Assembly: GCA_963402885.1 (NCBI GenBank)
Contig: OY727095.1
Coordinates: 16,745,001-16,809,000, forward strand
Direction of reading: 5' to 3'
Origin: Antedon bifida
Taxonomy: Eukaryota; Echinodermata; Crinoidea; Comatulida; Antedonidae
DNA: 64,000 bases
The position numbers and the translations under genes were made by a program. Shown here piece after piece: positions 4,472 to 64,000 of this stretch (positions are counted from its first letter, which is position 1; every line of letters begins with the position of its first letter). Under the pieces are notes generated by a model. That model made no database searches. It was not told the DNA's origin and saw only the letters and a program-made list of their open reading frames with translations.

Positions 4472-4644
4472 CTTCAATTAATAAATGTATTCATAATGGT
4501 TTACTAAATAACTAGTTTCTACCTAACTGCAATCTTTCATTTATTGTTTCATGCTATTTTACTTCAATCATAACTTCAAATGAGGGAATCTCAAACACAT
4601 GTGTCTTTGCCTACCAACATTACTATTAAGTATTATGTATATTT

Positions 4645-8250: not shown

Positions 8251-8252
8251 TT

Positions 8253-11296: not shown

Positions 11297-11306
11297 TTTC
11301 TTTATT

Positions 11307-15504: not shown

Positions 15505-15506
15505 TT

Positions 15507-15536
15507 GGTTATCCGCAACTTAGTTGCAGGATAATT
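15507..15536 (+). repeat. Solo B-type 5' hairpin
   Basis: A 30-bp hairpin is immediately repeated at 15537, with no element body between the two. It could be a local tandem duplication of the terminus or an abortive insertion. Confidence 0.6.
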
Positions 15537-19142: not shown

Positions 19143-19335
19143 TTAGGTGATCATTTAGAATAAAATGATCACCTATTGTTATGTATGAAATCTTATTCCG
19201 CTTTATTTCTTTCTGTAAAGATTTTGTGAATTAGACAGGCTAGAAAACCCAAAACCAAACATCGAAAATGATGATGAACAAGACGAAAACATTATTCCGG
19301 ATTTATGACCCAAGGAAAAAGAACCGTATAGATTA

Positions 19336-20085: not shown

Positions 20086-21187
20086 GATTAGAACATACAG
20101 AAAGTAGAATATCAAAACAGGAAAGCAACTATATGATCAGATGCCTAAATGACAAACAACAGAAAGTGTTTTATGAAATAAGACAGTGGTACTTAAACAA
20201 AGTTAACGGAAAACAGCCTGAACCATTTTATGTATTCATCACTGGAGGTGCTGGCGTTGGCAAGAGTCACTTGGTTAAATGTATTTACAACGAAGGTACA
20301 AGAATACTTGGAAAAATGATGCAAAATCCAGACGATGTTTCAATTTTAAAAGTTGCTCCTACCGGAATTGCAGCATACAATATAAATGGTAAAACAATCC
20401 ACAGTGCTCTATCTATCCCTATTAATGTATCACTTCCATATCAACCTCTTGGAGAAGAGAAAATAACGCAACTTCGTAATCGGCTTGGTCAATTACAACT
20501 ACTAATCATTGACGAAATATCCATGGTAGATCAAAAGATGTTATGTTACATACATGGTCGATTAAGACAGATCAAACAAGTACGAGATGATTCACCTTTT
20601 GGTAATGTTTCAATATTGGCAGTTGGAGACTTTTTTCAATTACCACCTGTAAAAGGCAGTTCATTATATAAAGAATCGCTTCAAAATATATTATGGACAG
20701 ATAATTTCAAGCAAATAGATCTCGATGAGATAATGAGGCAGAAAGAAGATGCTAAATTCGCTAATTTGTTAAACAGATTACGAACAAAGGAAAAAAATCA
20801 AATTTTGTCTAATGACGATTTAGAAACGTAGACTAGTCCAGATTTGAGAAAAATGAAATGCTGTAGGCATTTCATGTTAAAAGCGAATAAACATGTGTTT
20901 TAGGGTAATTTTGGGGTGCTGAATTCAAATTTGCTGTTTACCCGGCTCAATTTTTAGATCTTCACCCTAAAAATGTGAAAAACAAAATGGCCGCCATTTC
21001 ATACTTATTTTGGCTTATAACTTGACTTTTAAGTGACGTAGCAAGTTAAAAATGGTGTCTATACCTACTGTATGTTTGTGATAGTGAAGATTCCAACTAT
21101 ATTGTTATTAAAGTTGAAAATATTCTATTTCAGCCGCCATGTTGAAATCCAAGATGGCCGCCATCATTTTAAACGTATTTTGGCTTA

Positions 21188-27046: not shown

Positions 27047-30000
27047 AACAAGTACGAGATGATTCACCTTTTGGTAATGTTTCAATATTGGCAGTTGGAG
27101 ACTTTTTTCAATTACCACCTGTAAAAGGCAGTTCATTATATAAAGAATCGCTTCAAAATATATTATGGACAGATAATTTCAAGCAAATAGATCTCGATGA
27201 GATAATGAGGCAGAAAGAAGATGCTAAATTCGCTAATTTGTTAAACAGATTACGAACAAAGGAAAAAAATCAAATTTTGTCTAATGACGATTTAGAAACG
27301 TAGACTAGTCCAGATTTGAGAAAAATGAAATGCTGTAGGCATTTCATGTTAAAAGCGAATAAACATGTGTTTTAGGGTAATTTTGGGGTGCTGAATTCAA
27401 ATTTGCTGTTTACCCGGCTCAATTTTTAGATCTTCACCCTAAAAATGTGAAAAACAAAATGGCCGCCATTTCATACTTATTTTGGCTTATAACTTGACTT
27501 TTAAGTGACGTAGCAAGTTAAAAATGGTGTCTATACCTACTGTATGTTTGTGATAGTGAAGATTCCAACTATATTGTTATTAAAGTTGAAAATATTCTAT
27601 TTCAGCCGCCATGTTGAAATCCAAGATGGCCGCCATCATTTTAAACGTATTTTGGCTTATCTATATATAAATTTACGTAAGGGCAAAATTCGGTAATTCG
27701 CGCGTTACTTCTAGAATGTTTACTCGATGATATATAAAGTTGGTTCGTACTTTCGGTACTGATTTTAACCACCTGATGTAACCCTGTTTACTAATTAAAT
27801 TGAGTTAGATAATTAGTTATTGACAATTAAAACGAATTTAGGTTCAACGATTTGCCCCAAATAGGGGTGTTTTTCGATCGTGCTATACACTGTCTAATGG
27901 ATGTCCATCTTGAAAAATACCCGCAGACAATAATACGAGGATACTTCGCATTTTCCTATCTCCTCCTACGATAATTGTTTTTAATGGCTGGAAACCGGTT
28001 GAACAGCTCGAGTACAGTATCATAATGTTGAAGACAGGCAGATTTTCTTTAAAAAATACTATTTTATAGATTTAATATACGTTTATACAAATGTATTGAT
28101 TTGCGATGAATGGAACATTCCAATCTCTGTTCCACAAGTGTCTATTCCCTCAGGCGTCGTAAAGGCAAGTACTGTATACTCATAACAGAAATTCGATCCA
28201 TTTTTTTTTTCAATCTGTGCTGCAGAGGTTGGATATAGATTTTTTTTTAAAAAGATAATGAGCTAGCGTTTTCAGTCGCCGTATATTATGTACAGATCTT
28301 TATTATTGCAGTTAAACCACCCACATCATCACCCTTCCCTCACTGGCATGAGTAGCGTTGTAAAGACAGTAGAGGATACTTACTTACTAACTAAGTTGAG
28401 TTAGATAATTTAATATTTATTGACGATTAAATCAAATTTATGATTTGCCCCAAATAGAGGTGGTTTTCACAAATTGTTTTACATTATATAAACATATACA
28501 CGTCGTAGTGATGTATCGTTACATGTACTGTACTATTTCAATCGTCTAGGACGGTGATAGTTTCAACAAAGTATTACATCGCAATGTTTTACTGTGTTTA
28601 GTGGTATATTATTTGTAAAACATGAAAACAATTAATATTTCGTTACTAAATGGATAAAGAATATATTTAAAAATTGTTTCTCTTTCCACCCATCCTCTTC
28701 CCCATCCCTCAACCCTAATGTTACATACAAAACACAAATTAAGTTTGTTTAAATTTGACTTAAACAATTGGTCTCATTTTGTGACAAGTTTCTCTTTCGG
28801 AAGTAATTCCCAGGGTGCTAATTTTAGTTGAGTACATAAATCACAGTGTCTATTTATTCGTTCCTGTATTGTATTATTCTCCTGCGGTACGTACATTTGA
28901 AATTATGGAACGCCGTTTACGCAACATTTCGATGATATGAATTTTATGACGCGATATGTGAATGAAATGTATCGATATGAATTTTATGACGCGATATGTG
29001 AATGAAATGCATCGATATGAATTGAATGGCGCGATATGAATGAACTGTTTTGAATTGAATGCTTTGAATTGAATGTTTTGAATAAAATGTTTTGAATGAA
29101 ATGTTTTGAATGAAATGTTTTGAATGAAATGTTTTGAATAAAATGTTTTGAATGAAATGTTTTGAATGAAATGTTTTGAATGAAATGTTTTGAACGAAAT
29201 GTTTTGAATGAAATGTTGTTTTGTTGTTTTTGTTTCATTCAAAACATTTCATTCAAAACATTCAATTCAAAACATTCAATTCAAAGCATTCAATTTAAAA
29301 CATTTCATTCATATATCGCGCCATTCAATTCATATCGATGCATTTCATTCACATATCGCGTCATAAAATTCATATCATCGAAATGTTGCGTAAACAGCGT
29401 TCCATATGAAATCGCCAGTTTTTTAACGCTGAAATTAGTATGTATTCGAGAACCATCTGTGGGCACGACCTAGATGGTACGCGAGCGAAGCGAGCGTACC
29501 ATCTAGTAACTTTAATTAACATAGCAAGTTAAAAATGGTTTCTACCTATAGTCCAGTAAAAGTATGGTTGAACCTAGAACAAATTGCAGCATAATTTGTT
29601 TTTGTTTTGTCTGGTTGATATGGTCCAAATTAACATCATATCCAAAGTTTACCAAAATCGGACATCGTGAAGTGGGTTCATTAGCATAAATTAAAAATGG
29701 CCGTCATTTACCATTTTGAAGTCCTGTATATTATCTCCTTAACGGTTGTTTACTGTAAGTGAATTACTATTAATTATTATTAATCAGATGTCAGATGCAT
29801 GTTTCGAATTCATTCATAATTCATATCTTTGTTTCTTTGCAAGTACAGATCGTTTCTCATTCGAAATGCCATTGAAGATGTTGCCATTTGCTCCCCAGTG
29901 TTTTCTTTAACTACAGATTTTTCCACTATATTGCTTCTTCTGTCTTAAAATATTTTTTTAATGATGGCAAAGTAATAGTAGGCCCCTAATAGATTTAATG

Positions 30001-34562: not shown

Positions 34563-36129
34563 TGTAACCCGAGTTTCTAGCAAGAAACTAAAATTTCCAA
34601 GAAGTATTAAATAATCAAATCAAGGAAAACGCCTTATAAATTAAAAATGTAGATTTATTCCTTTGACATCAACTTGTCGGAATTTACATAAAACCAATAT
34701 TATTTGTTCTCAAGATAAAACATTAAAGTGTCCACAAAACTAAAAGTTTATATTAAAATTGAGTCTTCAGTTGAAACAATTCCGACTTGAAAGGTTCCAC
34801 AGTAGAGTAAATGTTATCAACGAAATGTTCCGACCAATGGTGTAATAATTGCAATAATGATTCGTAAATTTCAAAAGTAGTGTTTTCTCATCTAAGAAAA
34901 GAGAAAATATATACATATACTATATAACTATAAAACAATTTAAATCAAATATCATTTGGTACATAATTACAATACCACAATGTTTGCAAAATAACCTAGG
35001 CTATGATAGACAATTAAACAAAATAAAATATAATCCGTCAATACCATCAGGTTCGATTAACACTGATTGGTATATGATTATTCACACTACTCATTAAAAC
35101 AATAGTTACATTATATAGTTAGAGGTACTTCGTTTGGTAAGTATGCTAATACTTGATACCAATATAACTACATTGCAACGCAATGGATAATAGCAATAGC
35201 TATTCAAACGTGTGTCTATCAACATATTAACCTGACTATTATAAACTCAGGATGGTTAATGCATCCATTCAATAAACTAAATTATAAACTAAAAGGTAAT
35301 TAAATGTATAAAAATAAATGTCGCATATAAAGCGGAAATCAAAAATAAGTGTATAATACAATAGTATCAATTCTACAATCACACTCCAATTGTCTCTAGG
35401 TCAATCAATACCAAGAGTGTACTGCCATCTAGTAAATGACCCACATTTACCAGAATCATCCTGATACACTCATAAAATTAAAAGTATTAGCAAAAGCAAG
35501 TTAATCACTTCAAGACCCTTTAACTTAAAACGGGAGAGAACAATGTGTGATTGCAGAACCTTACTTTACAGTAACATAAATTACCAAGCGCAATTGCAAA
35601 TGGTATCACAAAAGTTATAAAATATAATCAAAGTTAGGTATCACATAACTAATCTAAAGCATTGAGCCAATGCAAACATAATGCATAAACCTAATCTTCA
35701 TAAGCTTAAATCTCAAATTAAGTTATATTAACACATTTGTTAAACATAAAATAATATAATTGATAGTTCTTACCTAAGAAAAGAGCCAAAATATGAAAAA
35801 GTGACTTCCTTTAAAGTTGTTAAAAATGTATAGATGTTTCTTGTGAGCAGGCACAAGTGGAAGTGATGTATAATCATCAGAAATGAGGTATAATCACCTT
35901 AGTTGCCTAGCAACTTGGCAAAACACATTCCTTACTTCCCAAACAGTGGTCACTTTGACCCACTTGGGGTAACCTTTGTTGCAATTAAGCTGCATTCTTT
36001 TCTACTGACCTATAAACTATATTTATATACATTGTAAAAACAGATACATTCAAATGAATAAAATCAAACAGAAAGATATAAGAAAGATATAAATGGTAAA
36101 ATATATTCATAAAAAATCATAGGGTTACA
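34563..36129 (-). repeat. Candidate long LTR of a minus-strand Ty3/gypsy element
   Basis: On the minus strand it starts TGTAACCC directly after a purine tract (AGAGGGGAGG) at the end of the integrase ORF and ends GGGTTACA at 34563, giving TG...CA ends with matching inverted tips. About 1.57 kb, with no ORF. A second LTR is not present, so this cannot be confirmed by pairing. Confidence 0.5.
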
Positions 36130-38343
36130 ACCTCCCCTCTTGAACTCTGCGTTGTCCCTAACGCACTTAAAGAATTTGCCAGACCATAGAGACTGGTGGC
36201 TACTCTGCTATACCAGGTTGGATTTCCAAGATGATCATAGTTGAGTCTTCGAGGCACTTGACGGTTTCTGACTGGCCTGCTGTATTCCTCCGTTTTTACA
36301 GTGATGTCGTCACCTTGTTCTGTAACACTTTCTGGTTCATTGGTTGTTTGATCACCATCATCAGACTCAGACCTCGTTGTTGTGTTAGTATCACCACTAG
36401 CTGTGTCTGCAGTTTCTACAGGCACTTCAGTATTGTTTTCACACTGAACTCGCTCCTCTTGTCCACTACTAAAATCTGTGATTTTCTTTATAAGTGTTCT
36501 AGGCGTGTATTCAGAGGCATCCATATTTGGAAATGTAAAAGGTACTATTATAGGCCTACTTGGAGTTTCTTGTAGATACGGTGGTGTAAGTGAACCCGCT
36601 ATGCTGCTATCCTCTATTTCAGAATTATCATTTTGTACAGGAGTAGCATTGAGAACATCAATGTGCTCAGTTTCACTGGCCTGATCATTTGCATTATCTA
36701 CAGGAACTGATATAGTTACATCTACAACAGATTCATCATCTTCATCACTGGAACAAGAATTTTCATTCTCGGTTGTATTCTTTGTTTGTGATCGGGTTTT
36801 TTGTCTTCTAGCCTTTTCTGGAACTGGACTGGGTTGTCTCACTTCTGTGATGTAACCAACAGGAAGAATATGATCCCGATGCAAAGTTTTAGCTTGTTCA
36901 TTACCTTTTTCTGGTTTAAGTCTGTAAACTGGAAGGTCTGCAAATTTCTCTATAATAATAAAAGGTTCAGGTTTCCAACGGTCTGCAAGCTTATTCTTTC
37001 CTTTAAGTCCTAAGTTTCTGACTAGAACTCGGTCTCCTGGTTGCAGAACTGCATTAGCTATACGGACTTTCTTATCGTACCTCCTTTTGTTAGCATGCCC
37101 AGCCTTTTCTGACTCATTTCTTGCCATATCATAAGCTTTCTCAAGACCTTGACGAAGATCTTCCACATATTTGCTATGACTACGATTTTGGTTTCCATCA
37201 GGGTGCAAGTCGAAACAAATATCAACTGGCAAGCGAGCTTCCCTTCCAAACATAAGAAAATAGGGTGAAAATCCGGTACTGTCATGCTTCGTGCAATTAT
37301 ATGCATGCACTAACGAGCTGACATGCTTACTCCAATTTACTTTCTTTTCATTTTCTAATGTTCCCAGCATGTTTAATAGTGTTCGGTTAAATCTCTCAGG
37401 TTGTGGATCTCCTTGTGGGTGATAAGGAGTGGTATGTGATTTGTGAATTCCTAATAGACCAGTGAGTTCTTTGATCACTTTACTTTCAAATTCTGGTCCT
37501 TGATCAGAGTGGAGCCTTTTTGGTAGCCCATAGTGTTGAAAGTATTGTTGCCATAATACCTTCGCAACTGTAAGTGCTGTTTGGTCCTTTGTCGGAAAAG
37601 CTTGGGCATACCTGGTGAAATGATCGGTCACTACCAGTATCGACTTCTTACCACTGCTATCTGGCTCAAGAGACAGAAAGTCCATACAGACCAACTCCAT
37701 AGGTCCATTTGTTTTAATATTGTGTAGCGGTGCACTTTTTGAAGGCAAAGATTTACGTGCTAGGCAACGACCACAATGCTTGACCCACTCTACCACCTCT
37801 GTTGACATCTTCGGCCAATAGAATCTCTCTCTAACTAACGCTACTGTGCGTTCAGTGCCATGATGTCCTAAGTCATTATGGAGCATTGTCAAAGCCTTCA
37901 CTCGGTAAGCCTTTGGTAAAAGGAGTTGTTCAATTTTACTACCGTCTTGAGGTCTGGTAATAATACGGTACAGTACATTATCTTTCAATGTTAATTTGGC
38001 ATATTCTCTGCAATAACGAGTAAGTTCCTTCGACGCGTTGTTTGTTATCTTTGGCTTCTGACCTGATTTTACCATTTCTTTCAGTTCCTTTAACACATAA
38101 TCAGCATCCTGTGCTTCACTCCAGTTAATAACATCAGTGAGGGATGTTTCATTACTATACATCTCTGGAATACACTGACTACTACCACCAAGACAATATG
38201 CATAAGGTAGTGTGTCACTTGAATTGGTAACAGCTGAACGTACCCCATATACCGCATTTATGACTTCTTTAGGTGAGATTTCACTCACTCGCGTTTGTAG
38301 ATTCTCTTTAATTCTCATCTGATCAACTTCATCTGCCGCATTA
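36117..38343 (-). pseudogene. Ty3/gypsy integrase fragment (5'-truncated pol)
   Basis: Long minus-strand frame of about 740 residues. It has the HHCC zinc domain (HNDLGHHGTER, then CGRCLARK) and the integrase core: Asp in VCMDFLSL, Asp in HSDQGPEF, Glu in DPQPERFNRTL, all intact. A C-terminal module follows (GDRVLVRNLGLKGKNKLADRW, VYRLKPE, RTLHRDHILPV pattern), then an acidic, Ser/Thr-rich tail of roughly 200 residues. Protease, RT and RNase H are missing: upstream of about 38343 the sequence changes abruptly to an inverted Penelope-like piece, so the annotated ATG (38354) lies in foreign sequence. The stop codon falls just inside the candidate LTR. Recently active, now a truncated copy. Confidence 0.8.
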
Positions 38344-39003
38344 GTTGTGAACAATTTCTGAAGCTGAATTTCTGGCTGAACGTGTTAGGATCCCTGTACA
38401 ATGTGAAGTGACATCTGCTTTGTGTTCTTTTATCCTTGTGGATAAGGTTCTAGCTGTTTCTCCTATATATGCTTTTTCGCAGTTGTTGCAATTTACTTGG
38501 TATATTACACCAGATTTGTCATCATTTTTTATTATTTCAGCCAGAAATTCAGCTTCAGAAATTGTTCACAACTCAGCTATCACCGATCACATGACCACTC
38601 ACACTCACTTACCAAATTGGAACGTAAAAATACTAGGCACGGAATCTTCATGGAAAGACAGAAAAATAAAAGAATCAATAAAAATAAGAAAACATGGTAA
38701 CACTATGAACAGAGATGACGGCGGTTTGGAACTCCCAAAATTGTACAATAACTTACTAAAGAGGAGGCCCCGACAATCCCATTTGGGAAAACCTGAACGA
38801 TCTATAGATGGCGCTATACCATATACGAAATCTAATGGTAACAAGTCCAAGTCACAGAGACTCACTCATGATTAAGCTGCGTCGTTGACCAGCGAAAGCT
38901 AGAGTAAAAAACGTAAGCTTTACGATTTTTATTTGACTTTGGATCATCCAAAAGAAAATTTACTTGAATACTATACAGTGATCCAGATGAACCTTTTTAC
39001 TAA
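38343..39003. mobile_element. Rearranged Penelope-like element: GIY-YIG endonuclease in two opposed pieces
   Basis: The minus strand (about 38515-38345) encodes VIYQVNC, then CEKAYIGETARTLSTRIKEH, the GIY-YIG nuclease core. The plus strand (38540-38875) encodes its continuation: AITDHMTTHTHLPNW, then GNTMNRDDGGLELPKL, ending in TAA at about 38875. The segment spelling ARNSASEIVHN is present at both breakpoints in opposite orientation (38343-38380 and 38538-38575). One part has therefore been inverted, with a copied overlap. The 3' tail (GGATCATCCAAAAGAAAA, 38942 on) equals that of the fragment at 7.4-7.9 kb. The nuclease provides target cleavage in Penelope retroelements; RT is absent. Confidence 0.7.
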
Positions 39004-42947: not shown

Positions 42948-43304
42948 ATGGCCGACAAGAATAAACCAGCAATGGACTGGGCATCACCAGATTTGTTGAG
43001 AGAATTTAAACGGTTCAAACAACACTGTCAATTCACGTTTGATGGTCCTTTAGACGCAAAGACGGAAATACAAAAAGTTAACTATTTAATGACTTGTATT
43101 GGGGACCGTGGACGAGAAATATATGGGACATTTGTATGGGCCGCAGCTCAGCCCGAAAATGGTGACCAAGCAGCAATACCTGCAGAAAACGAGATGCTGA
43201 GTGGGGTTTTAAATAAGTTTGAAAATTACCTAAAACCCAAGCGAAACGTGATCAAGGCAACAAAAGATGCCAGCACAAAAGTGAAAATTTTAATGACTTT
43301 TTGA
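42948..43304 (+). pseudogene. gag N-terminal part, ending at a frameshift
   Basis: ATG at 42948; 118 residues beginning MADKNKPAMDWASPDLLREF, the usual opening of gypsy capsid proteins of this type. The stop at 43302 comes from a frame change around 43286-43295, in a run of A and T. The rest of gag, including the zinc knuckles, continues in the other frame. A one-base loss is the simplest explanation. The bases do not fit a canonical -1 slippery heptamer in the zero frame, so programmed shifting seems unlikely. A base-calling error in the homopolymer is possible. Confidence 0.8.
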
Positions 43305-46300
43305 CGGACATTAGAATTCTTGTAAAATTGTGCGACTATGGCGATCTAGAGGAAAGGATGTTGCGCGATGCTATTGTACTGAAAGCCATTCATCCCAGAG
43401 TCAAGGAAAAGTGTATGGATGAAGGGGACAATCTAACCCTGGACAAGGCAATCAGCATTGCACAAAATCAAGAAGTTAGTGATGACACGTTGCAAGCACC
43501 GGCAAGTCAACTAAATGCATTGAGCATGAATAATCATAGTAACTCAAAAAGGAGCACTACTAAACACTTTGACTGCAGAAGGTGTGCCACAAAACATGGA
43601 CCAAAATCATGTCCAGCATTTGGTAAAATATGTGACAAATGCAACGGGCGCAATCACTTCGGAAAATGCTGCACAACGAAAATAAGCTACGCAAAGAAAC
43701 ACGCAAAAGATGATAAACACAAATATCACAGCAAAAGCTTTAAAAGAGCGAATGTGGTTGTAGCATCGGAATCGGAATCTGAGGAGGAAACCTTTCTATT
43801 GAACACAATTGAAATAGAGTGTAACGCCATTTCAAAACCCTCCCATGGATTTTTCTGTCAACTTGACATAAACAACAACAAAGTTGTATTTCTACTTGAC
43901 AGTGGGGCAAAAGTTAACATATTGCCATACACGGAATACAGCAAACTGAACAGCAAACCACTCCTCATTCCCGTAAGTACGCCAGTCAAGAGCTACTCCG
44001 ATGCTGCTATCCCAATTTTAGGGAAATGCAACCTGGACATAGCGTACAGTAAGGATCGTAAAGGAACATTTGCAGTATACATAGTTGATGACAAATTGAC
44101 AAATTATAAACCACTATTAAGTGCCGATACATGTTTGCAGCTGCAACTAATAATACCGAACTTTGAGGAAGCGTCACTGAATACAGTGGAACGAAACACC
44201 ACTAACGGCATTCATCATGTACAAGATATTGTAAACAAACACGATAATGTCTTCAAAGGTCTTGGGTGCTTACCAAGGAAGTATCACATACACACTGACA
44301 AATCGATTCCACCAGTTCAAAGTCCTTGTCGGAAAATACCCTTCAAGATAAGAGATAAAGTTAAAATGGAACTTGATCGCATGGAACAGCTTGGTGTGAT
44401 AGAAAAAATTCAGGAACCAACTGAATGGGTAAGCAACATCGTTACCGTGAACAAACGGAATGGTGACATTCGCCTATGCCTTGACCCTAGAAATCTCAAT
44501 AAAGCCATAAAGCGTGAACACTTCAAGCTACCGTCAAGGGAAGAAATTATGGCCGAATTCGCTGATGCTAAATTTTTTACAAAACTAGATTTCACATCAG
44601 GATATTGGCAGCAACCTCTCGATGACGAAAGTGCTCAACTAACATGCTTTATTACACCTGTGGGACGTTACATCTTCAAACGTTTACCATTTGGAATTAA
44701 CTGCGCAAGCGAAGGGTTCCAAGTGGCAATTAGCAACTTGTTGGAAAACATACCACGAGTAAACTCAATGCAAGATGACATCATCATATCATCTAAAACA
44801 ATTGAAGATCATAGAGACAAATTAAGCCAAGTACTTGACATCATAGAGAAGAACGGCATAAAGCTAAACAAACGAAAATGTGAGTTCTGTGTCAAGCAAG
44901 TTGTATTCCTTGGTGATTTACTCACAGATAAAGGCATAAAGCCAGATCCAGAGAAAATTAAGGCAATAACAAATATGCCACAACCCTCAACCAAGCTCGA
45001 GATGCAACGATACTTAGGCATGGTCACATACCTAGCAAAGTTCGTACCAGACTTATCAAACATAACTGCTCCGCTAAGAGAGTTGACGAAAGATAACGTA
45101 GTCTGGGTATGGCAAACATCCCAAGATAATGCTTGGAGAGAAGTTAACAAGCTGCTGACAACTGCGCCAGTTTTGCAATTCTATGATCCAAACAAGCAAT
45201 GCAAAGTCAGTGCGGATGCATCAAAGGATGGCATCGGAGCTGTTCTACTCCAACAACACAATGATAGATGGGCGCCAATAGCATATGCCTCAAGAGCAAT
45301 GACCTCAGCAGAAACAAGGTACGCACAAATTGAAAAAGAGTGCCTAGCCACAATGTTTGCATGTGAAAGATTCCACCAATTTCTTTATGGACAATCAGTT
45401 ATATGCGAGACTGATCACAAGCCACTTGTATCAATTTTCTCGAAACCGCTAGCTGATGGACCTCTGCGTCTACAAAGAATGCGATTGCGTCTGCAAAAGT
45501 ACGACATAAAGATAATCTATGTACCTGGAAAATCACTCCAAACAGCGGATACTCTTTCACGAGCAGTTGACGCGACATACCAACTGTCGTCAGAGCAACA
45601 ATTTAATGATGACATTGATATGTATGTACAATCAATAATTGCAGCGTTACCTACTACTGACAAAAAACTCAAGGAAATTGAAGTTGAGTCAGGCAACGAT
45701 GAAGCGATAAGAGAACTGAATCGCACAATTCAACAAGGATGGCCTAACAAGCGAAACAAATGCCACCCAGCAACACGAGATTACTGGAATTATCGTGATG
45801 AGCTATCAATAAAAGGCGATCTCGTATTCAAAGGTGATCGAATCGTAATACCTGCTAAAATGACAAAGGACATGCTTAAGCAAATCCATACTGGACACTT
45901 GGGTATCGAAAAATGCAGGAGACGGGCTAGACAAGTAATATTCTGGCCAAACATCAACAAGGACATAGATGACAAAGTAAAATCTTGTCCGACATGCCAG
46001 AAACACCAACCAATGCAACCAAAGGAACCAATGGTATATGCAGCCGATAACACCCAACCATGGCAAAAAATTGGGGTTGATCTTTTCACGGTAAACAATA
46101 ACAATTACATCACATGTGTTGACTATTATTCTCAATACATTGAAGTTCGTCAACTAACAAGTTCATCTTCAGCAGCTGTAATCAACATACTGAAATCATG
46201 GTTTGCGATACATGGTACACCATTTGTACTCTTTTCTGATAATGGTCCACAATTCGTCAGTGAAGAATTTCGGAAATTCACCAACGAATGGAACTTTGAA

Positions 46301-46924
46301 CATACAACTTCCAGTCCATATTTTGCGCAGTCAAATGGACAAGCTGAAAATGCAGTAAAGATAGTCAAACGAATTATCAAGAAATGTACAGAGACAAAGG
46401 AAGATATATACTTAGCACTACAGATATATCGTGCTACACCACTCGAGCATGGACTTAGTCCAGCAGAAATGATGTTCTCAAGGAAAATCAGATCAAACCT
46501 CCCAGTTAATGAGTCAGCGCTAAAACCAAAACTTATTGACTTAAAGGAAAAGAAGGATGAGCTAAAGCAAAAACAAGCGTGGAACTATAACAAACATTCA
46601 AAAACTCTAGAAACCATACAATACGGACAGAAAGTTAGAGTATATGATACAACATCTAAGTTGTGGAACAAAGTTGGAACAATTCACAAATCACTACCTC
46701 ATAAATCTTATCTTGTGAAATGTGGAAATAATATCTATAGACGGAACAGAAGGCACATCATGCCAATACCATCCATTGACAGATATGACAATGACGACTA
46801 TGACTCGGATGACGACGTACCGGTTCCAAATGACAGAAATCGTCAAACTACCGATCAAAACCGACCACGACGTCAAGCCCGACGACCAGCATACTTAGAC
46901 GACTATGTTACAGACAAAATATAA
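43301..46924 (+). CDS. gag C-terminus and pol polyprotein (PR-RT-RH-IN)
   Basis: Open for 1207 codons with no ATG at its upstream end. In order: end of capsid; two zinc knuckles (CRRCATKH and CDKCNGRNHFGKCC, residues about 90-125); aspartic protease LLDSGAKVNILP (about 198); reverse transcriptase with KLDFTSGYWQQPLD (about 427) and catalytic MQDDIIIS (about 492); RNase H with SADAS, EKE and ETDHKPL (about 637-705); integrase HHCC (about 862-905) and D,D,E in GVDLF, FSDNGPQF and GQAENAV (about 926, 979, 1014); C-terminal IYRRNRRHI. All catalytic residues seen are intact. It makes and integrates the cDNA of the element inside gag particles. Confidence 0.95.
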   Translation: MTDIRILVKLCDYGDLEERMLRDAIVLKAIHPRVKEKCMDEGDNLTLDKAISIAQNQEVSDDTLQAPASQLNALSMNNHSNSKRSTTKHFDCRRCATKHGPKSCPAFGKICDKCNGRNHFGKCCTTKISYAKKHAKDDKHKYHSKSFKRANVVVASESESEEETFLLNTIEIECNAISKPSHGFFCQLDINNNKVVFLLDSGAKVNILPYTEYSKLNSKPLLIPVSTPVKSYSDAAIPILGKCNLDIAYSKDRKGTFAVYIVDDKLTNYKPLLSADTCLQLQLIIPNFEEASLNTVERNTTNGIHHVQDIVNKHDNVFKGLGCLPRKYHIHTDKSIPPVQSPCRKIPFKIRDKVKMELDRMEQLGVIEKIQEPTEWVSNIVTVNKRNGDIRLCLDPRNLNKAIKREHFKLPSREEIMAEFADAKFFTKLDFTSGYWQQPLDDESAQLTCFITPVGRYIFKRLPFGINCASEGFQVAISNLLENIPRVNSMQDDIIISSKTIEDHRDKLSQVLDIIEKNGIKLNKRKCEFCVKQVVFLGDLLTDKGIKPDPEKIKAITNMPQPSTKLEMQRYLGMVTYLAKFVPDLSNITAPLRELTKDNVVWVWQTSQDNAWREVNKLLTTAPVLQFYDPNKQCKVSADASKDGIGAVLLQQHNDRWAPIAYASRAMTSAETRYAQIEKECLATMFACERFHQFLYGQSVICETDHKPLVSIFSKPLADGPLRLQRMRLRLQKYDIKIIYVPGKSLQTADTLSRAVDATYQLSSEQQFNDDIDMYVQSIIAALPTTDKKLKEIEVESGNDEAIRELNRTIQQGWPNKRNKCHPATRDYWNYRDELSIKGDLVFKGDRIVIPAKMTKDMLKQIHTGHLGIEKCRRRARQVIFWPNINKDIDDKVKSCPTCQKHQPMQPKEPMVYAADNTQPWQKIGVDLFTVNNNNYITCVDYYSQYIEVRQLTSSSSAAVINILKSWFAIHGTPFVLFSDNGPQFVSEEFRKFTNEWNFEHTTSSPYFAQSNGQAENAVKIVKRIIKKCTETKEDIYLALQIYRATPLEHGLSPAEMMFSRKIRSNLPVNESALKPKLIDLKEKKDELKQKQAWNYNKHSKTLETIQYGQKVRVYDTTSKLWNKVGTIHKSLPHKSYLVKCGNNIYRRNRRHIMPIPSIDRYDNDDYDSDDDVPVPNDRNRQTTDQNRPRRQARRPAYLDDYVTDKI

Positions 46925-54117: not shown

Positions 54118-55037
54118 TATTATCATAATTCTATTTAAAATGACATAACATCTGTCAAATCAAGTCTTCTTTAGTCTGTATACATCCGCTCTCATGAGGG
54201 TGGGCATCCACGCTCTGTTACAAATTTCTAATGCAAAAATTGCAGATTACTCATTCTTGTGATATATTCTCCGTTTTTTCTCTCAGCTGGTCATCTCTGC
54301 AAAATGGCTGCGGGAGCACAAAAATTTGTTTGAGTTGTCATTTAGTTGTGAGACCCTACATTTTTATTTTGTGCCCGATCGTCTCTTGTCCCAATCGTCT
54401 TACAACATTATTGGGCTCCCCGATCGCCTGGGCCAGGCCTGGCCCTAGCTGTTTTATTTCGACTCCAAACTTATTTTGAATACCACACCTTAGAATTTTT
54501 AATTAAAATTAGCATATGTATGAAACGCCATATGTGGCAATATATTTATCTTTTTACTAAAATTATGTCAAAACACATTTTAGAACCTACCTGTAGACTA
54601 CCCAAATATCTGAAGTTGACATACTAAACTAATTGTAAGGAGAGAACTCACTCATTAGACAGACGTGATGAAGAAAATAACAGAAATTGCTTGACATGAA
54701 GAGAAAAGGAAAAATTAAATGTGAAAAAATATTATAAGGTCAATTTGACAATGATAATTATTAAATTGTCAATTCCCAAAGTGATTTATTTTTAAATGTT
54801 TACAACATTCTTCTAATGATTTTTTTTTCTATTTTGTAATTGATATATATTGATTGATATTCATATGTAGTTATTGTTAACAACCTCTTTATCAACTGGA
54901 ATTTATTACAACTTAACAATATAAACACCCAAGAAAATGGCCTGGTTATTTAATATTAGATTTCAATATTTTCAGTTAAATTTCCTGCCGAAAACGAGAA
55001 ATATGTTAATTTATAAATTTTTGGAATGTATATCATT
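54118..55037. other. Non-coding stretch
   Basis: Contains an 82-codon ORF (54231-54479) without recognised motifs in a locally GC-richer patch; I would not call it a gene. The remainder is AT-rich. Confidence 0.35.
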
Positions 55038-55101
55038 AGGTGATCATTTAGAATAAAATGATCACCTATTGTTATTGTATAAAATCTTTATTATTATTTT
55101 T
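55038..55101 (+). mobile_element. Helentron-like 5' end, subtype A, broken by insertion
   Basis: Hairpin 55038-55067 and about 35 bp of leader are seen before the next A hairpin begins in its T tract. No partner 3' end lies within the window. Confidence 0.65.
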
Positions 55102-55164
55102 AGGTGATCATTTAGAATTCTAAATGATCACCTATTGTTATTGTATGAAATCTTTATTTTTTTT

Positions 55165-56595
55165 GGTTTTCCGCAACGAAGTTGCAGGAAAACCTCTTGT
55201 GATTGTACGAAATCATCATCATCTTTTTTGTCATCTTCTTTCTTTCTGTATGATTTTTGTGTAACGCTTTTCTCTGAAACTTGCAAACATAACATTTTGT
55301 GAACTATGTTAACATTTTGACATTTATGTAACGTCGTCAAGCGAAGCTTTTCATGATGTTTACAATTGCGCAACGTGACGTACGCGCGATTTAACGATTT
55401 TCTCGTATTTAACATAGGTCAAAAACCAAATAACATTTTAAATTGAAACTTTGCACAAGTTTAATTTATATCATGCGCTAACTTTCTGTTGAACAAAAAT
55501 TGCGTGTTTTACACAAAGTTACGCGTGCACGCGCATTTAAAATTTCAAAATGCGCAAAATTAATTTCTAATCAACTTTCTACGCGTTTCATGTCGTTTTA
55601 AGCATGTAAAAAATTCCCACGCGTGCGCAAATTTTTACGTGTGCGGTGCGCACGTAGCATTAAAAACATATTTTTTTCGCGTGATTTATGTTTTTCCAGC
55701 CTTTTCTAGTAATTTTACCAACTTTTAAACAATTTCGACTTACAGTAACGTCATACGAGCACGTGGAATTGGACAATTTGCGCGAGTTTTTGTTGAAAAA
55801 GTTAAAAAATTCGTCAAAATTATGCCTTTTTTTAAACAGTCGTAATTTCTAAACTGCACGGTCAACTTTTTGTGGATGACATTTTCTGGAAGTTAATGAG
55901 TTGTAGATATCGGATCATGTATTAATATGGCTAACCGGACATTGTGACGTCATCGTATGGCCACGCTAATATAAAATTTAGGATTTTTGTATCTTTCGTC
56001 ATAGCTCATCACATTTAATAGAGCGCATCTCCACTTATCCGTTTTCCATTTTCACCCAAATTTTGATATTGTCTAGGTCAATCAACTGTCTTTCGCATGA
56101 ATTAGAAATATTTTAATTTTTTTGACGTCATCATTCCTAAAAATTTAAATTACGTGTGGCATTAATTTCATCTTTACAGTAAATTTTAATCTGTTATAGC
56201 TCGTAAGAATAAAATTTGATAATCACGATTAAAACGTTTTATGGAAGCTATTGGATTGTAGATACGAAATCATGTGAAAATTTTGCCAATCGGATGTTGT
56301 GACGTCATCATATGGCCAGTTAAATGAAAAAAGTCGTATTTTCATCTTTTGCGTCATAATTCATTACATTTAAAAGATTAGATTATACTGTGTATACTAT
56401 ATATGAATCGAAATAATAGAATTCAGCAATAACAACATATCATATTCTTCAGTTCAGGTCATAATGCCAATGTGAACACTTCCTTTTGTCCTCAACCTAT
56501 CCCTTAATGTTAAAAGGTACGTCGTTACACGTTCATGTTGCACCACTTGCGCGGCGGAAAACCAAACTCGTCAAAGTGACGAGTTACATGTCTAG
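55165..56595 (+). mobile_element. Helentron-like element, subtype D, complete
   Basis: 5' hairpin GGTTTTCCGCAAC, GAA, GTTGCAGGAAAACC. 3' end GGCGGAAAACC, stem-loop ACTCGTCAAAGTGACGAGT, ACATGTCTAG. About 1.43 kb. Confidence 0.75.
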
Positions 56596-56597
56596 TT

Positions 56598-59500
56598 GGT
56601 TTTCCGCAACGAAGTTGCAGGAAAACCTCTTGTGATTGTACGAAATCATCATCAACTTTTTATTAGTTATCCGCATTCAGCGGATAACTCCTTGTAACTG
56701 TCCTGTTTCATCATCTTTTTTTTTTTTTTTTCTGTATTCTTCTTTCTTTCTGTCATTTTTGTGTCACACGTAACTCAAAAACGTGTAAACATAACATTTT
56801 ATAACTTTGTCAACATGTGGGCATTCACGTGAAGTTGTGCACCTGCTATTGTGAATGACGTCAGAGTTGCGCAACGTGACTTACGCGCGTTTTTATGAAT
56901 TTCGCGTATTTAACATAGATCGAAAACCATATAACATTTTAATTTGAAACTTAGAAAAAGTTTAAGTTATATCTTGCGCTAACTGACTGTGGGAAAAAAA
57001 TGACATGTTTCACACAAAGTTACGCGTGCACGCGCGTTTGAAATTTCAAAATGCGAAAAATCAATTTCTAATCAACTTTCTACGTGTTTCATGTCATTTT
57101 GAGCATGTAAAAAATTCCCACGCGCGCACATTTTTTTACGCGCGCGGTGCGCACGTAGCGTTGAAAACAATTTTTTTCCCGTGATTTATGTTTTTCCAGC
57201 CTTTTCTAGTAATTTTACCAACTTTTGAACAATTTCGATATAAAATTACGTCATACGGGCACGTCGAATTGGATAATTTACGTGCATTTTTTATTAAAAA
57301 GTTCAAAAAATCGTCAAAATTTGTCAAAATTATGCCCTTTTTTAAACAGTCGTAGTTCCTAAACTAAACGGTGAAAGTTATTTTTTTTGCATATTCTGGA
57401 AGTTGATGAGTTGTAGATTTTGGATCATGCGTTAATATGTCTAACCGGACATTGTGACGTCACCGTATGGCCACGCGAATATAAAATATAGGATTTTTGT
57501 ATCTTTCATCATAGCGCATGACATTTAATAGAGCGCATCTCCAATTATCTGTTTTCCATTTTTACCCAAATTTTTATATTATCTAGGTCAATCAACTATC
57601 TTTCGCATGAGTTAAAAATATTTTAATTTTTATGACGTCATCATGTCTAAAAATGTAAATAATGTGGGTCACTTATTTTCATCTTTACAGTAAATTTCAA
57701 TCTGTTATAGCTCGTCAGAATAAAACGTGATAATCATGATTAAAACGTTTTCTGGAAGCTATTGGATTTTAGATACGAATTCATGTGAACATTTTGCCAA
57801 TCGGATGTTGTGACGTCATCATATGGCCAGTTGAATAAAAAAAGTCGTATTTTCATATTTTGCGTAATAGTTCATCACATTTAAAAGGGCGCGCATCTAT
57901 ATTTTACGTATTCAAATTTCTTCTACACGGTAATATGTGGTTGCTGAGATAATGTCCTTCCGAAATTGCTGTCTTAGTTTTTCATTTTGATACCGTCGCC
58001 ATGTTAAAAATAGGAATAACCGGGGGTCCCGTAATTTCACCTATTCTACACTGTATGTAATATGTATACAGATTATACTGTTTATACTGTATATACTATA
58101 TGACACAAAATTGACAGAATTCAGCACTAACAACATATCATATTCTTCAGATCAGGTCATAATGCCATAATCTTTTTCTGTGTGCAAAAGTCTAACGTAT
58201 GACGTGCACGTGGCGTTTGTCGTGCGGATAACTAACTCGTCAAAGTGACGAGTTACATGTCTAGTTTATCTTCTTTCTTTCTGTATGATTTTTGTGTATC
58301 GCTTTTCTCTGAAACTTGCAAACATAACATTTTGTGAACTATGTTAACATTTTGACATTTATGTAACGTCGTCAAGCAAAGCTTTTCATGATGTTTACAA
58401 TTGCGCAACGTGACGTACGCGCGATTTAACGATTTTCTCGTATTTAACATAGGTCAAAAACCAAATAACATTTTATATTGAAACTTTGCACAAATTTAAT
58501 TTATATCATGCGCTAACTTTCTGTCGAACCAAAATTGCGTGTTTTACACAAAGTTACGCGCGCACGCGCATTTAAAATTTCAAAATGCGCTAAATTATTT
58601 TCTAATCAAGTTTCTACGCGTTTCATGTCGTTTTAAGCATGTAAAAAATTCCCACGCGTGCGCAAATTTTTACGTGTGTGGTGCGCACGTAGCATTAAAA
58701 ACATATTTTTTTCGCGTGATTTATGTTTTTCCAGCCTTTTCTAGTAATTTTACCAAATTTTAAACAATTTCGACTTAAAGATACGTCATACGAGCACGTC
58801 GAATTGGACAATTTGCGCGCGTTTTTTTATGAAAAGGTTAAAAAATTCGTTTAAAATATGCCCTTTTTTAAACAGTCGTAATTTCTAAACTAGACGGTCA
58901 ACTTTTTGTGGATGGCATATTCTGGAAGTAGATGAGTTGTAGATATCGTATCAGGTATTAATATGGCTAACCGGACATTGTGACGTCATCGTATGGCCAC
59001 GCGAATATAAAATTTAGGATTTTTGTATCTTTCGTCATAGCTTACCACATTGAATAGAGCGCATCTCCACTTATCCGTTTTCCATTTTCACCCCGATTTT
59101 GATATTGTCTAGGTCAATCAACTATCTTTCGCAGGAGTTAAAAATATTTTAATTTTTTTGACGTCATCATGCCTAAAAATTTAAATCACGTGTGGCATTA
59201 ATTTCATCTTTACAGTAAATTTTAATCTGTTATAGCTCGTAAGAATAAAATGTGATAATCACGATTAAAACTTTTTCTGGAAGCTATTGGATTGTAGATA
59301 CGAAACTATGTAAAAATGTTGCCAATCGGATGTTGTGACGTCATCATATGGCCAGTTAAATAAAAAAGGTCGTATTTTCATCTTTTGCGTCATAATTCAT
59401 TACATTTAAAAGAGCGCGCATCAATATTTCACGTATTCAAATTTCTTCTACACGCTAATACGTTGTTGCTGAGATAATTTCCTTTCGGAAATGCTACCTT

Positions 59501-59790
59501 CGCGTTTCATTTTAAAACCGTCAACATGTTAAAAATTGCAATAAATATCGGGTCCCGTAATTTCACCTATTCTACACTGTATGTGATATGGATACAGATT
59601 ATACTGTGTATACTATATATGAATTTAAATAATAAAATTCAGCAATAACAACATATCATATTCTTCAGTTCAGGTCATAATGCCAACGTGAACACTTCCT
59701 TTTGTCCTCAACGTATCCCCTTAATGTTAATGTTGCACCACTTGCGCGGCGGAAAACCAAACTCGTCAAAGTGACGAGTTACATGTCTAG
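56598..59790 (+). mobile_element. Helentron-like element, subtype D, split by a C element
   Basis: D hairpin at 56598, interrupted at about 56663; resumes at 58265 (TTATCTTCTTTCTTTCTG) and closes with a D-type end at 59790. Own length about 1.59 kb. Confidence 0.75.
56664..58264 (+). mobile_element. Helentron-like element, subtype C, complete
   Basis: 5' AGTTATCCGCATTCAGCGG; 3' GCGGATAACT, stem-loop, ACATGTCTAG. About 1.6 kb, with two related internal modules. Confidence 0.75.
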
Positions 59791-59792
59791 TT

Positions 59793-61376
59793 AGTTATCC
59801 GCATTCAGCGGATAACTCCTTGGAACTGTCCTGTTTCATCTTTTTTTTTCTGTATTCTTCTTTCTTTCCGTCATTTTTGTGCAGAGCGTATCTCTAAAAC
59901 GTGTACAGTTAACGTTTCATAACTTTGTCAACATATGGGCATTCACGTGAAGTTGTGCACCTCTTATTGTGAATGACGTCAGAGTTGCGCAACGTGACTT
60001 ACGCGCGTTTTTACGTTTTTCGCGTATTTAACATAGATCGAAAACCATATAACAATTTCAAATGAAACTTAGCAAAAGTTTAATTTATATCATGCGCTAA
60101 CTTTCTGTGGACAAAAAATGACATGTTTCACACGAAGTTACGCGCGCACGCGCGTTTAAAATTTCAAAATGCGAAAAATCAATTACTAATCAACTTTCTA
60201 CGCGTTTCATGTCATTTTAAGCATGTCAAAAATTCCCAGGCGCGCGCAATTTTTTTACGCATGCGTGCGCACGTAGCGCAAAAAAACTTTTTTTTTCGCG
60301 TGATTTATGTTTTTCCAGCCTTTTTCTAGTAATTTTACAAACTTTTAAACAATTTCGACTTAAAATCACGTCATACGGGCACGTAGAATTGGATAATTTT
60401 CGCGAGTTTTTGATGAAAAAGTTTTAAAATTCGTCAAAATTTGTCAAAATTATGCCTTTTTTTAAACAGTCGTAATTTCTAAACTGGACGGTCAACTTTT
60501 TGTGGATGACATATTCTTGAAGTTGATGAGTTGTAGATATCAGATCATGTAATAATATGGTTAACCGGACATTGTGACGTCATCGTATGGCCACGCGAAT
60601 ATAAAATTTAGGATTTTTGTATCTTTCGTCATAGCTCATCACATTTAATAGAGCGCATCTCTACTTATCCGTTTTCCATTTTCACCCCGATTTTGATAGT
60701 GTCTAGGTCAATCAACTATCTTTCGCATGAGTTAAAAATATTTTAATTTTTATTACGTCATCATGTCTAAAAACGTAAATAACGTGGGTCACTTATTTTC
60801 ATCTTTACAGTAAATTTCAATCTGTTATAGCTTGTCAGAATAAAAAGTGATAATCATGATTAAAACGTTTCCTGGAAGCTATTGGATTGTAGATACGAAT
60901 TCATGTGAACATTTTTCCAATCCGACGTTGTGACGTCATTACATGGCCAGTTTAATAAAAAAAGTCGTATTTTCATATTTTGCGTCATAGTTCATCACAT
61001 TTAAAAGAGCGCGCATCTATATTTTACGTATCCAAATTTCTTCTTCACGTTAACATGTTGTTACTGAGATAATATCCTTCCGAAATTGCTATCTTAGTTT
61101 TTCATTTTGATACCGTCGCCATGTTAAAAATTGGAATAAATGGCGGGTCCCGTAATTTCACCTATTCTACACTGTATGTGATATGTATACAGATTATACT
61201 GTGTATACTATATGACACAAAATATACAGCATTCAGCACTAACAACACATCATATTCTTCAGTTCAGGTAATAATGCCATAATCTTTTTCTGTGTGCAAT
61301 ATTCCAACGTATGACGTGCATGTGGCGTTTGTCGTGCGGATAACTAACTCGTCAAAGTGACGAGTTTCATGTCTAG
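59793..61376 (+). mobile_element. Helentron-like element, subtype C, complete
   Basis: Same termini as the 56664 copy and the same length class (about 1.58 kb). It begins two bases after the CTAG of the preceding D element. Confidence 0.75.
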
Positions 61377-62890
61377 TTCTTTTTATTGTTTCTGTACACT
61401 ATTTTGTGTAACAATTATCTCAAAAAGTTTAATGTCAATGATTACAAAAATTTCAGAATATCTTTCAAATAATATAACTTAATCCTAATAAGCTTTCCAG
61501 CGTGATCACTCATCCGTGACGACATTTATACGCCATTTTGCGAAATCACATTATCAATCATATCTCCATAATTCATTATCACATATTAATGAAATTCACT
61601 ACACGTAAACTTCAGATCAAGGGTAAAAATATTAGCAAATAAAAACGCACGCGCACGTAGGTTCATGCGCGTGATATCGCGCGTTAAAAATTTAAAACGC
61701 TCAAAATTAAGTTTTGATCAATTTAGAGCATGAATTAGGCCATTTGCGTGTTTCAAAAAATTACTGCGCAAAAATGCGTTTTTGCGCGCGCGATACTTAA
61801 AAAGCGTAAAAAATATGAATTTTTTTTACAAATCTCATTCTACTCACCATCCTTAGTACATTTACCAAATTTGAGTCAGTTCCGACTTAAAATAACGCTA
61901 TACGAGCATGTTATAAATGATAAAATGCGCACATTAATTTTACAAAAGTTCTGAAAATGGTGAAAAATAGGTCTTTTTTAAAATGAAAATAATTCTTCAG
62001 AATGCAAGATGACCCCCGATTTTTTTAACTTATTCTGGAAGCCATTGAGTTGTAGATATGAATTCATGTACACATTTTACGTACAAAATGTTTTGACGTC
62101 ATCAAATGGCCACTTGAATTTAAAAATAAGGATTTGTTATCTTTTTGTGTAGATTATCACATTCAACAGAGCGCATCTTGGTTATGTGTGCTCGAATTTC
62201 GCACAACTTTCAGTATGTGCTTGCTTAATTAATTATCTTTATCATGAGTTGACACTATTTTCATTTTAATGACGTCATCACGCGTAAAAACTTTAATAAC
62301 GTAGGCCGTGTAATTTCACCTTCGCAGTAAATTTGAATATCTTACAGCTCTTCAAAATTGAAGGTTACCTTGATGATTATAATTTATTATGAAAGCTGAT
62401 GAAATTTAGATATTAATTCATATAAAAATTAAGCCTATCGGATGTTGTGACGTTAACATATGGCCAGTTGAAGTGAAAAAGTAGTTTTTTCATATTTTTC
62501 GTCCAAGTTATACACAATTCAAAGAGCGCGCACAGCGCTTCTACGTGCCAAATTTTTTTCCAAATCTTATATTTTTTTGCTCAATTAATTATCTTTCGAA
62601 ATTGTCATCTTAAAGTTTAGTTTGATAACGTCATCATGCCAAAAAATTAGAACATGTGTGTCCCGTAATTTCACCTATGCTACACTGTATATAGATATAC
62701 AGTATATACTGTACATATTGTATATGGCATATAGGCACAACTCAGCACTATAAGCATATAATAGGATGGCATACATCAACATTTTCCGATCGTATGTTAA
62801 CGTACGTGCATGTTTAAAAAAAATTAATTTCAGTAAAATGATAAAAATGATCACCTATAATTCGTCAAAGTGACGAATTAAATTCTAGTT

Positions 62891-64000
62891 AGGTGATCAT
62901 TTAGAATAAAATGATCACCTATTGTTATTGTATGAAATCTTTATTGGTTTTCCGCAACGAAGTTGCAGGAAAACCTCTTGTGATTGTACGAAATCATCAA
63001 CTTTTTATTAGTTATCCGCATTCAGCGGATAACTCCTTGTAACTGTCCTGTTTCATCATCTTTTTTTCTTCATCTTTCTTTCTGTCATTTTTGTGCAGAG
63101 CGTATCTCTAAAACGTGTAAAGTTAACATTTCATAACTTTGTCAACATATGGGCATTCACGTGAAGTTGTGCTTTTCTATTTTTGAATGATGTCAGAGTT
63201 GCGCAACATGACTTACGCGTGTTTTTATGAATTTCGCATATTTAACATAGATCGAAAACCATATAACAATTTATATTGAAACTTAGCAAAAGTTTAATTT
63301 ATGTTTTGCGCTAACTTTTTGTGCCAAAAAAATGTCATGTTTTACAAAAAGTTACGCGCGCACGCGCGTTTAAAATTTTAATATGCGAAAAAAAAATTTC
63401 TAATCAACTTTCTACGCGTTTCATGTCATTTTGAGCATGTCAAAAATTCCCACGTGCGCGCAATTTTTTACGCACGCGGTGCGCACGTAGCGTTAAAAAC
63501 ATAATTTTTTCGAATGATTTATGTTTTTCCAGCCTTTTCTAGTAATATTACTAAGTTTTAAACAATTTCGACTTAAAATTACGTCATACGAGCACGTAGA
63601 ATTGGACAATTTTCGCACATTTTTGATGAAAAAGTTCAAAAATTCGTAAAAAGTATGCCTTTTTTTAAACAGTCGTAATTTCTAAACTGGACGGTCAACT
63701 TTTTGTGGATGACATATTCTTGAAGTTGATGAGTTGTAGATATCGGATCATGTATTAATATGGTTAACCGGACATTGTGACGTCATCGTATGGCCACGCG
63801 AATATAAAATATATGATTTTTGTATCTTTCGTCATAGCTCATCACATTTAATAGAGCGCATCTACACTTATCCGTTTTCCATTTTCACCCCGATTTTGAT
63901 AGTGTCTAGGTCAATCAACTATCTTTCGCATGAGTTAAAAATATTTTAATTTTTATTACGTCATTATGTCTAAAAACGTCAATAACGTGGGTCACTTATT
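62891..64000 (+). mobile_element. Three stacked Helentron-like 5' ends (A, D, C) running off the window
   Basis: Hairpins start at 62891 (A), 62946 (D) and 63010 (C), each in the T-rich leader of the one before, followed by a C-type body up to the window edge. No 3' ends are reached. Confidence 0.7.

Follow-up and report, generated by a model that had tools for sequence, protein, structure and literature searches.

To determine whether a run of Helentron-like elements in the crinoid Antedon bifida records the order of its own insertions, we analyzed a window of 64,000 nucleotides (nt), positions 16745001–16809000 of contig OY727095.1 (contig C8) in assembly GCA_963402885.1, and searched the whole assembly (315,563,634 bases, 27 contigs). 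The original prediction had read 5' hairpins at 55102–62888 of the window as opening brackets and CTAG stem-loops as closing brackets, by subtype. We recovered all ten, arranged as A( D( )D D( C( )C )D C( )C )A without mismatch; they delimit five elements, each with a 5' hairpin and a 3' hairpin-plus-CTAG end (Table 1). The interval is very probably a nest of five Helentron-associated interspersed elements (HINEs; non-coding, non-autonomous Helentrons) of subtypes A, C and D, produced by successive rolling-circle arrivals into or beside resident copies, with a last-in-first-out order that can be read from the sequence.

Label order alone is weak evidence for such a nest, since 1 of 30 orderings of the closer labels fits the fixed skeleton of openings and closings (about 0.03); rejoining of the interrupted pieces is the stronger evidence. 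After in silico excision of nested copies, the elements measured 1433 nt (D1), 1602 nt (C1), 1593 nt (D2), 1586 nt (C2) and 1575 nt (A1), in agreement with the 1.4–1.6 kb first proposed; comparison D copies elsewhere are 1594–1626 nt long. Removing the inner copies restored D2 and A1 as colinear elements. Rejoined A1 was 99.0% identical to the uninterrupted A element at 11305–12860 and 96.6% identical to that at 4643–6131, and rejoined D2 was 95.3% identical to D1.

The nesting was then followed beyond the window, at whose end four openers stand open (A55037, A62890, D62945 and C63009). The expected order of closers was set down before further sequence was fetched, and four short stretches were read, covering 2,254 of the next 5,550 bases. 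The order found was a C 3' end at 64708, a D restart at reference position 68, a D 3' end at 66252, an A restart and an A 3' end at 67794, so that three of the four predicted closers were found in order. The resumed D was 99.2% identical to the D2 reference, and the closer spacings of 1,544 and 1,542 nt are compatible with single bodies, the sequence between the stretches being unread. Just ahead of the C 3' end, 144 nt (C8:16809450–16809593, locus L092) gave no match to the C reference and are perhaps a non-family insert or divergent body.

Comparable arrangements occur elsewhere in the genome, where the exact 34-nt A 3' end was found 1,603 times (reversed control, 0). The exact A ends listed for the first 20.455 Mb of contig C1 (100 5' and 94 3', a count that misses B, C, D and mutated A ends) fell into 79 same-strand clusters, including 34 with a single 5' and 3' end, 15 lone 5' ends, 12 lone 3' ends and ten with 5' arrays. 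Four of these ten were pure balanced nests (depth 6, 3, 2 and 2), one was balanced and mixed, and five were unbalanced. In the six-deep nest, the cleanest case, the 5' array and all six 3' junctions were read. Openers 3–5 end at CTTTA and the first three resumed bodies start TTATTATT. A divergent A variant supplies both opener 2 and the fourth resumed body. The cut in opener 1 falls late in the tract, and the fifth body likewise resumes late; no A tract follows the sixth 3' end. These cut tracts fit last-in-first-out pairing.

The ends of the elements have the Helentron/HINE layout assigned to them by the original prediction. They carry subterminal inverted repeats (subTIRs; about 11–15 nt in HINEs) at both ends and a 3' palindrome, and the target is T-rich, without target-site duplication (TSD). 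The first 5' arm pairs with the second at 6–11 of 11 positions, with the fewest pairs in the truncated B15506, and its complement is found again just ahead of the 3' palindrome, where the 3' copy matches the 5' arm of its own subtype at 12 of 12 positions in A, 10–11 of 11 in B and C, and 11 of 11 in D. When folded as DNA, each of four 5' hairpins was better than all 200 shuffles (z −5.1 to −9.3), and the 3' ends gave z −5.3 for A and z −2.9 for D, the latter with 2 of 200 shuffles as good. The palindrome of the two B ends inspected has a 10-nt stem and a 3-nt loop ahead of CTAG. Subtypes C and D are 83–85% alike, and A is 61–63% like either; this likeness is colinear, which suggests a single family whose branches differ in their terminal repeats.

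The exact boundary is ambiguous. The 5' ends are TT(A/G)G; CTAG is followed by T in all 99 cases, and the base ahead of the T(A/G)G start is T in all 131. No TSD was present at two empty sites: element C1 in D2 compared with the uninterrupted D of locus L024, and a D in the A of L019 compared with L039. Excising TT..CTAG of element C1 leaves ...CAACTTTTTA^TTTATC..., which matches the L024 copy except in CAT repeat number, and at both non-T sites inspected this excision restored the local sequence of the uninterrupted copy. The Ts are common to flank and element, so that TT..CTAG at A^T gives a string identical to that of T..CTAGT at T^T, an ambiguity of 2 nt. The base ahead of TT was A in 36, T in 10 and G in 1 of 47 host-level 5' ends, and A in 26, T in 20 and G in 2 of 48 inside tracts. 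The predicted T–T target is compatible with these data and not unique to them: it is possible rather than proven, and a Helitron-like A^T target is likewise possible. Similarly, CTAG does follow the hairpin, and as the element terminus it is one of the two readings.

To place these elements among known systems, we compared them with published accounts, and statements with a citation refer to the sections of each source that were covered. HINEs and DINE-1-like elements share with the present elements subTIRs with a palindromic 5' copy, a 3' palindrome, T-rich targets, absence of a TSD, high copy number and derivation by deletion from Helentrons bearing Rep, helicase and endonuclease (PMC4067079); DINE-1 elements are also treated in PMC2374699. 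The present elements differ from these HINEs in the CTAG ahead of the 3' flank and in a boundary readable as TT..CTAG at A^T, a configuration described for proto-Helentron-Pi, which has no endonuclease (PMC4067079). The proto-Helentron (Phytophthora type) pattern of 5' TT, 3' CTAG and A–T insertion fits one of the two boundary readings, and its lack of an endonuclease does not apply here. Compared with canonical Helitrons, the 3' CTRR with a hairpin about 11 nt upstream has its counterpart in the hairpin and CTAG, whereas the 5' TC is replaced by TT(A/G)G and the Helentrons of this genome described below bear an endonuclease. Cg_HINE of the Pacific oyster has the same 5' subTIR, inverted repeat and microsatellite-like tract, 3' subTIR and palindrome, and T-rich targets; it differs in its satellite-like central arrays, and the sections covered do not describe self-nesting in the 5' tract (PMC7492417). 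FoHeli of Fusarium oxysporum shares hairpins, asymmetric inverted repeats, self-insertion and 5' termini repeated at 31–85 nt, a spacing close to that found here, and the same kind of site may already have been seen there; the sections covered describe a single nested element, together with partial copies in which 5' termini are repeated, and no deep nests with resumed bodies (PMC5148889). Bat, maize and silkworm Helitrons form clusters and direct neighbours, with tandem arrays ascribed to missed termination, whereas the order here is largely nested (PMC4067079); some silkworm Helitrons are combinations of others (PMC3789558). Nesting, T-rich targets and multiple 5' termini are thus already known. 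What looks new is a self-insertion tract shared by four subtypes, deep last-in-first-out nests whose cuts are complementary, and the occurrence of CTAG ends next to Helentrons that bear an endonuclease; among the papers listed in searches of one open-access library, we recognised no description of a fixed self-insertion tract.

HINEs are held to originate from endonuclease-bearing Helentrons (PMC4067079), and a PF14214 profile search of the genome returned 39 matches, 38 over the cut-off and 20 in open reading frames (ORFs) of more than 2,000 amino acids (aa). One ORF of 3152 aa, read in two pieces, contains OTU, DUF6570, Helitron_like_N, PIF1 and Exo_endo_phos domains and carries IEFQMRGSPHVH, including the S given as a sign of Helentrons (PMC4067079). 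Around this ORF neither A-type ends nor ends of its own were found, and the ends of the L053/L054 Helentron family were likewise not found. The flanks of seven Helentron copies were inspected, and A-type ends lie beside two of them. At the contig C8 copy (Rep match at 8197496), A positions 1–1389 match upstream in one piece at 93.8%. At the contig C15 copy (Rep match at 11257406; endonuclease end 54% identical over 89 aa, the helicase there being unread), an A 3' end lies about 2.2 kb past the endonuclease end, and its last 234 nt align with A 1324–1555 at 74%; L065 shows no further A body match ahead of it. Upstream of this copy, past inserted A copies, the A body resumes at reference position 78 and runs to 1337 at 86.5%. 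At both contigs the stretches between the A-type parts and the Rep matches are unread. The subtype A elements fit non-coding deletion derivatives of a Helentron, and their transposition protein is likely to come from an endonuclease-bearing Helentron of the same genome. Reverse-oriented B-type elements were observed downstream of two Helentron copies (L054 and L061).

We then assessed where copies land, using the window and loci L009–L048. We scored 75 3' ends. A 5' end follows 35 of them within 15 nt, with no gap in 25 cases; after 29 a family body resumes, and the remaining 11 run into host or unscored DNA. All 29 resumed bodies start at reference positions 54–84, and no HINE insertion into an element body was seen. 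When 5' ends were counted only if at least 90 nt into their locus (n = 116), 46 lay within 120 nt behind another 5' end (44 at 53–83 nt, two at 30 and 36 nt), 36 followed a 3' end by at most 15 nt, 33 stood in host DNA and one followed a D 3' end missed by the scan. Confinement of insertions into relatives to one 5' tract yields the clean bracket syntax. Orientation was uniform: none of 96 3' ends departs from the majority strand of its locus, which is what a requirement for the T tract on the target strand would produce. A less biased sample of 40 A 3' ends, the first 43 in the contig C1 listing minus three close neighbours, gave 28 with their own A 5' end upstream, which are the solo copies with the same termini that the original prediction expected, 5 interrupted in the tract (by A, D, D, C and D) and 7 fragments or unscorable cases; for 20 of the 40, 321 nt around the tract were read.

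These positions suggest a mechanism in which copies would arrive one by one by rolling-circle copy-and-paste, each entering a resident's T-rich tract in the same orientation, mostly 53–83 nt inside its 5' end, or landing directly beside the resident. The outer 5' hairpin would remain as opener and the resident body and 3' end would be displaced downstream as closer; nests would thus be last-in-first-out and readable. The choice of tract may depend on its T-richness together with an adjoining, Rep-bound 5' hairpin.

Several observations weigh against the nest reading or its extension. The balanced bracket order of the interval does not extend to all clusters: a second cluster at 4.6–19.2 kb contains, by eye, 15 5' ends and 10 3' ends, a count that includes one 5' end with half a hairpin and one with a duplicated hairpin and excludes hairpin-less remnants (the motif scan of the window misses the 3' end at 9845). 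Five of its 5' ends are unclosed (C6571, B8252, B8305, B8497 and A19144), and deletions or composite elements are needed to explain them; deletion, recombination between bodies or movement of composites with multiple 5' ends (PMC5148889) could each have produced them. Opener A55037, which starts 64 nt ahead of the interval, has no closer in the stretches read, within the window or in the extension, where two further A copies abut at the expected place. Pairing within the contig C1 clusters gave 76 pairs and left 24 openers and 18 closers unmatched, for exact A motifs only. Loci L009–L028 are 20 picks from 149 matches, mostly starting with an A 5' end and a D, and A-with-D nests are therefore over-represented; at one of them, L025, a D lies inside an A 5' end and host DNA comes next in place of an A body, which again calls for a deletion or a composite element. 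The link to a Helentron covers subtype A and not B, C or D; the 5.1 kb read downstream of the contig C8 copy shows no A-type 3' end, and a Helentron with both A-type ends was recovered from none of the seven copies, the contig C15 opener not having been reached. Finally, the 5' tract holds 19 of 28 T-rich 12-mers in A, 14 of 25 in C, 6 of 10 in D and 4 of 15 in B.

The second cluster nevertheless contains nested order of its own. Downstream of seven consecutive 5' ends (B B C C B B B) come the body of B7 and then the resumed bodies of B6, C4 and C3, which stand in nested order. The C3 and C4 tracts, cut at different points, rejoin to strings with two differences in about 62 nt compared, one T within the tract and a single base beyond it; an earlier assignment of 12863–13171 to B was dropped on account of this near-identity. 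An excess of 5' ends as a general rule was likewise abandoned, since the genome-wide counts from matched exact 24-mers were 1,506 for the A 5' end and 1,635 for the A 3' end, and the excess is thus local to this cluster. Taken together, the results support the original interpretation of nested Helentron-type HINEs with a readable order.

The T-rich fractions given above (27–68%) mean that T-richness alone would place that share of insertions in the tract and is a large part of the cause. A plain preference for T-rich sites, with no role for the 5' end, has close to an even chance of being the full account of the position bias: such a preference is known for HINEs (PMC4067079, PMC7492417), and the longest T run lies in the 5' tract in five of eight uninterrupted elements, with a tie in one and a longer run elsewhere in two. 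The other T-rich 12-mers of the same elements nonetheless took none of the 29 resumed insertions, in a set that was partly selected. We advance more tentatively the possibility that the 5' end is a self-targeting landing pad, at which hairpin-bound Rep would steer copies into the T-rich tract; the family would then stack upon itself, spare host DNA, keep its termini and leave a stack-ordered record, and would join an endonuclease-bearing Helentron with proto-Helentron-like TT..CTAG ends. The role of the hairpin in targeting is what we infer here.

Composite transposition, in which an element with several 5' ends and one 3' end would move whole, starting at the leftmost 5' end and stopping at the first 3' end, and some arrays would be inherited, appears unlikely. 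It has been proposed for Fusarium FoHelis with 5' termini repeated at 31, 65, 73 or 85 nt (PMC5148889); it would account for the unclosed B8497, B8252, B8305 and C6571 and for L025; and parts of the 8252–8690 array match elsewhere at 67–98%, the longest over about 375 of 451 bases at 76%. A composite ending at the first 3' end would lack a resumed body, and the resumed bodies in the interval, the extension, the six-deep nest and 15 of the 20 loci L009–L028 count against it, as does the absence of a second full copy of the array among the best candidates scored. These resumed A bodies, with their differing cut points, also weakened an earlier view of the A 5' end with D as mainly one moving composite, which L025 still fits. 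Concatemers formed by bypass of the 3' terminator, as proposed for the head-to-tail arrays of bat and silkworm Helitrons, are improbable and would apply to abutting pairs only: 25 of 35 neighbouring pairs are exactly end to end, five of seven exact pairs in the window are of one subtype (B|B twice, C|C, D|D and A|A, with 15506 read as B), and A copies stand head to tail beyond the window too, whereas two of the seven cross subtypes (C|A and D|C) and the 5' arrays and resumed bodies are left unexplained. Separate origin of 5' arrays and body arrays by tandem duplication, slippage or unequal crossing-over, suggested by the slippage-like spacings of 30 nt at 15506/15536 and 36 nt in L026, is highly improbable given the mixed subtypes within arrays (B B C C B B B), the complementary cut tracts of opener and closer in the six-deep nest, and the four of ten contig C1 array clusters that are pure balanced nests, the other six being mixed or unbalanced.

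Other features of the window were also recorded. Within C4 at 12861–13180, a second body start lies about 310 nt past the first; the cause may be duplication within the element or a deletion that fused two bodies. Long terminal inverted repeats, identified by eye, bound an element inside a B body at 7418–7859, and part of its sequence recurs near 38845 on the other strand. An insert resembling a miniature inverted-repeat transposable element occupies 6168–6570, with inverted ends AAAGATGTATTGTCCCCC / GGGGGACAATACATCTTT (by eye), and adjoins hairpin-less B-type 5' remnants. Identical 124-aa frames at 22402–22776 and 28874–29248, 6,472 bases apart, suggest a direct duplication. Retrotransposon frames were found at 43223–46924 (reverse transcriptase/RNase H/integrase) and 36117–38384 (integrase). 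One 3'-end pattern run against viral contigs gave no matches.

Table 1. Positions of HINE parts and related features (window coordinates unless a contig is named).
Feature	Position	Strand	Remark
A, uninterrupted	4643–6131	+	
Array of 5' ends B B C C B B	8251–8619	+	53–71 nt spacing, running into seventh (B 8621)
B7, complete B-type HINE	8620–9845	+	Innermost of array
B6 resumed body and 3' end	9846–11296	+	
A, uninterrupted	11305–12860	+	Inside C4 tract
C4 resumed body and 3' end	12861–14216	+	Internally rearranged
C 14218, 5' piece	14217–14273	+	Resumes 17122–18585
B, complete	14274–15504	+	Inside C 14218 tract
B15506, B-type	15505–17121	+	Duplicated 5' hairpin
C 14218 resumed body and 3' end	17122–18585	+	
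C3 resumed body and 3' end	18586–19142	+	Internal deletion
A19144, A 5' end	19143–19194	+	Truncated
Helentron-like Pif1 helicase fragment	20040–20831	+	PIF1 E 3e-30; 73% identity over 245 aa to helicase part of 3152-aa ORF
A55037, A-type 5' end	55036–55099	+	Outermost opener, cut after about 64 nt
A1 5' piece (TT, hairpin, tract)	55100–55162	+	Rejoins with 61377–62888
D1, D-type HINE	55163–56595	+	1433 nt, internal deletion
D2 5' piece	56596–56662	+	Empty-site comparison with uninterrupted D of locus L024
Element C1, complete C-type HINE	56663–58264	+	Inside D2 tract
D2 resumed body and 3' end	58265–59790	+	Restarts at reference position 68
Element C2, complete C-type HINE	59791–61376	+	Adjoins D2 inside A1 tract
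A1 resumed body and 3' end	61377–62888	+	Restarts at reference position 75
A62890, A-type 5' end	62889–62943	+	Opener of next nest; 3' end of A body beyond window, equivalent 67794
D62945, D-type 5' end	62944–63007	+	D body restarts beyond window, ends 66252
C63009, C-type element	63008–64000	+	3' end beyond window at 64708
Six-deep A nest, cleanest case	C1:19280160–19291600 (L096–L102)		Six 5' ends 55–75 nt apart, then six 3' ends 1.5–1.7 kb apart

The relative order of insertions, which is usually inferred from divergence, can here be read in the sequence, so that purely computational work could place many rolling-circle insertions in order and measure their target preference. An element boundary is hard to fix in T-rich DNA, and junctions containing bases other than T help to narrow it. 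The pattern also offers a way to test the transposition protein for targeting of its own 5' ends.

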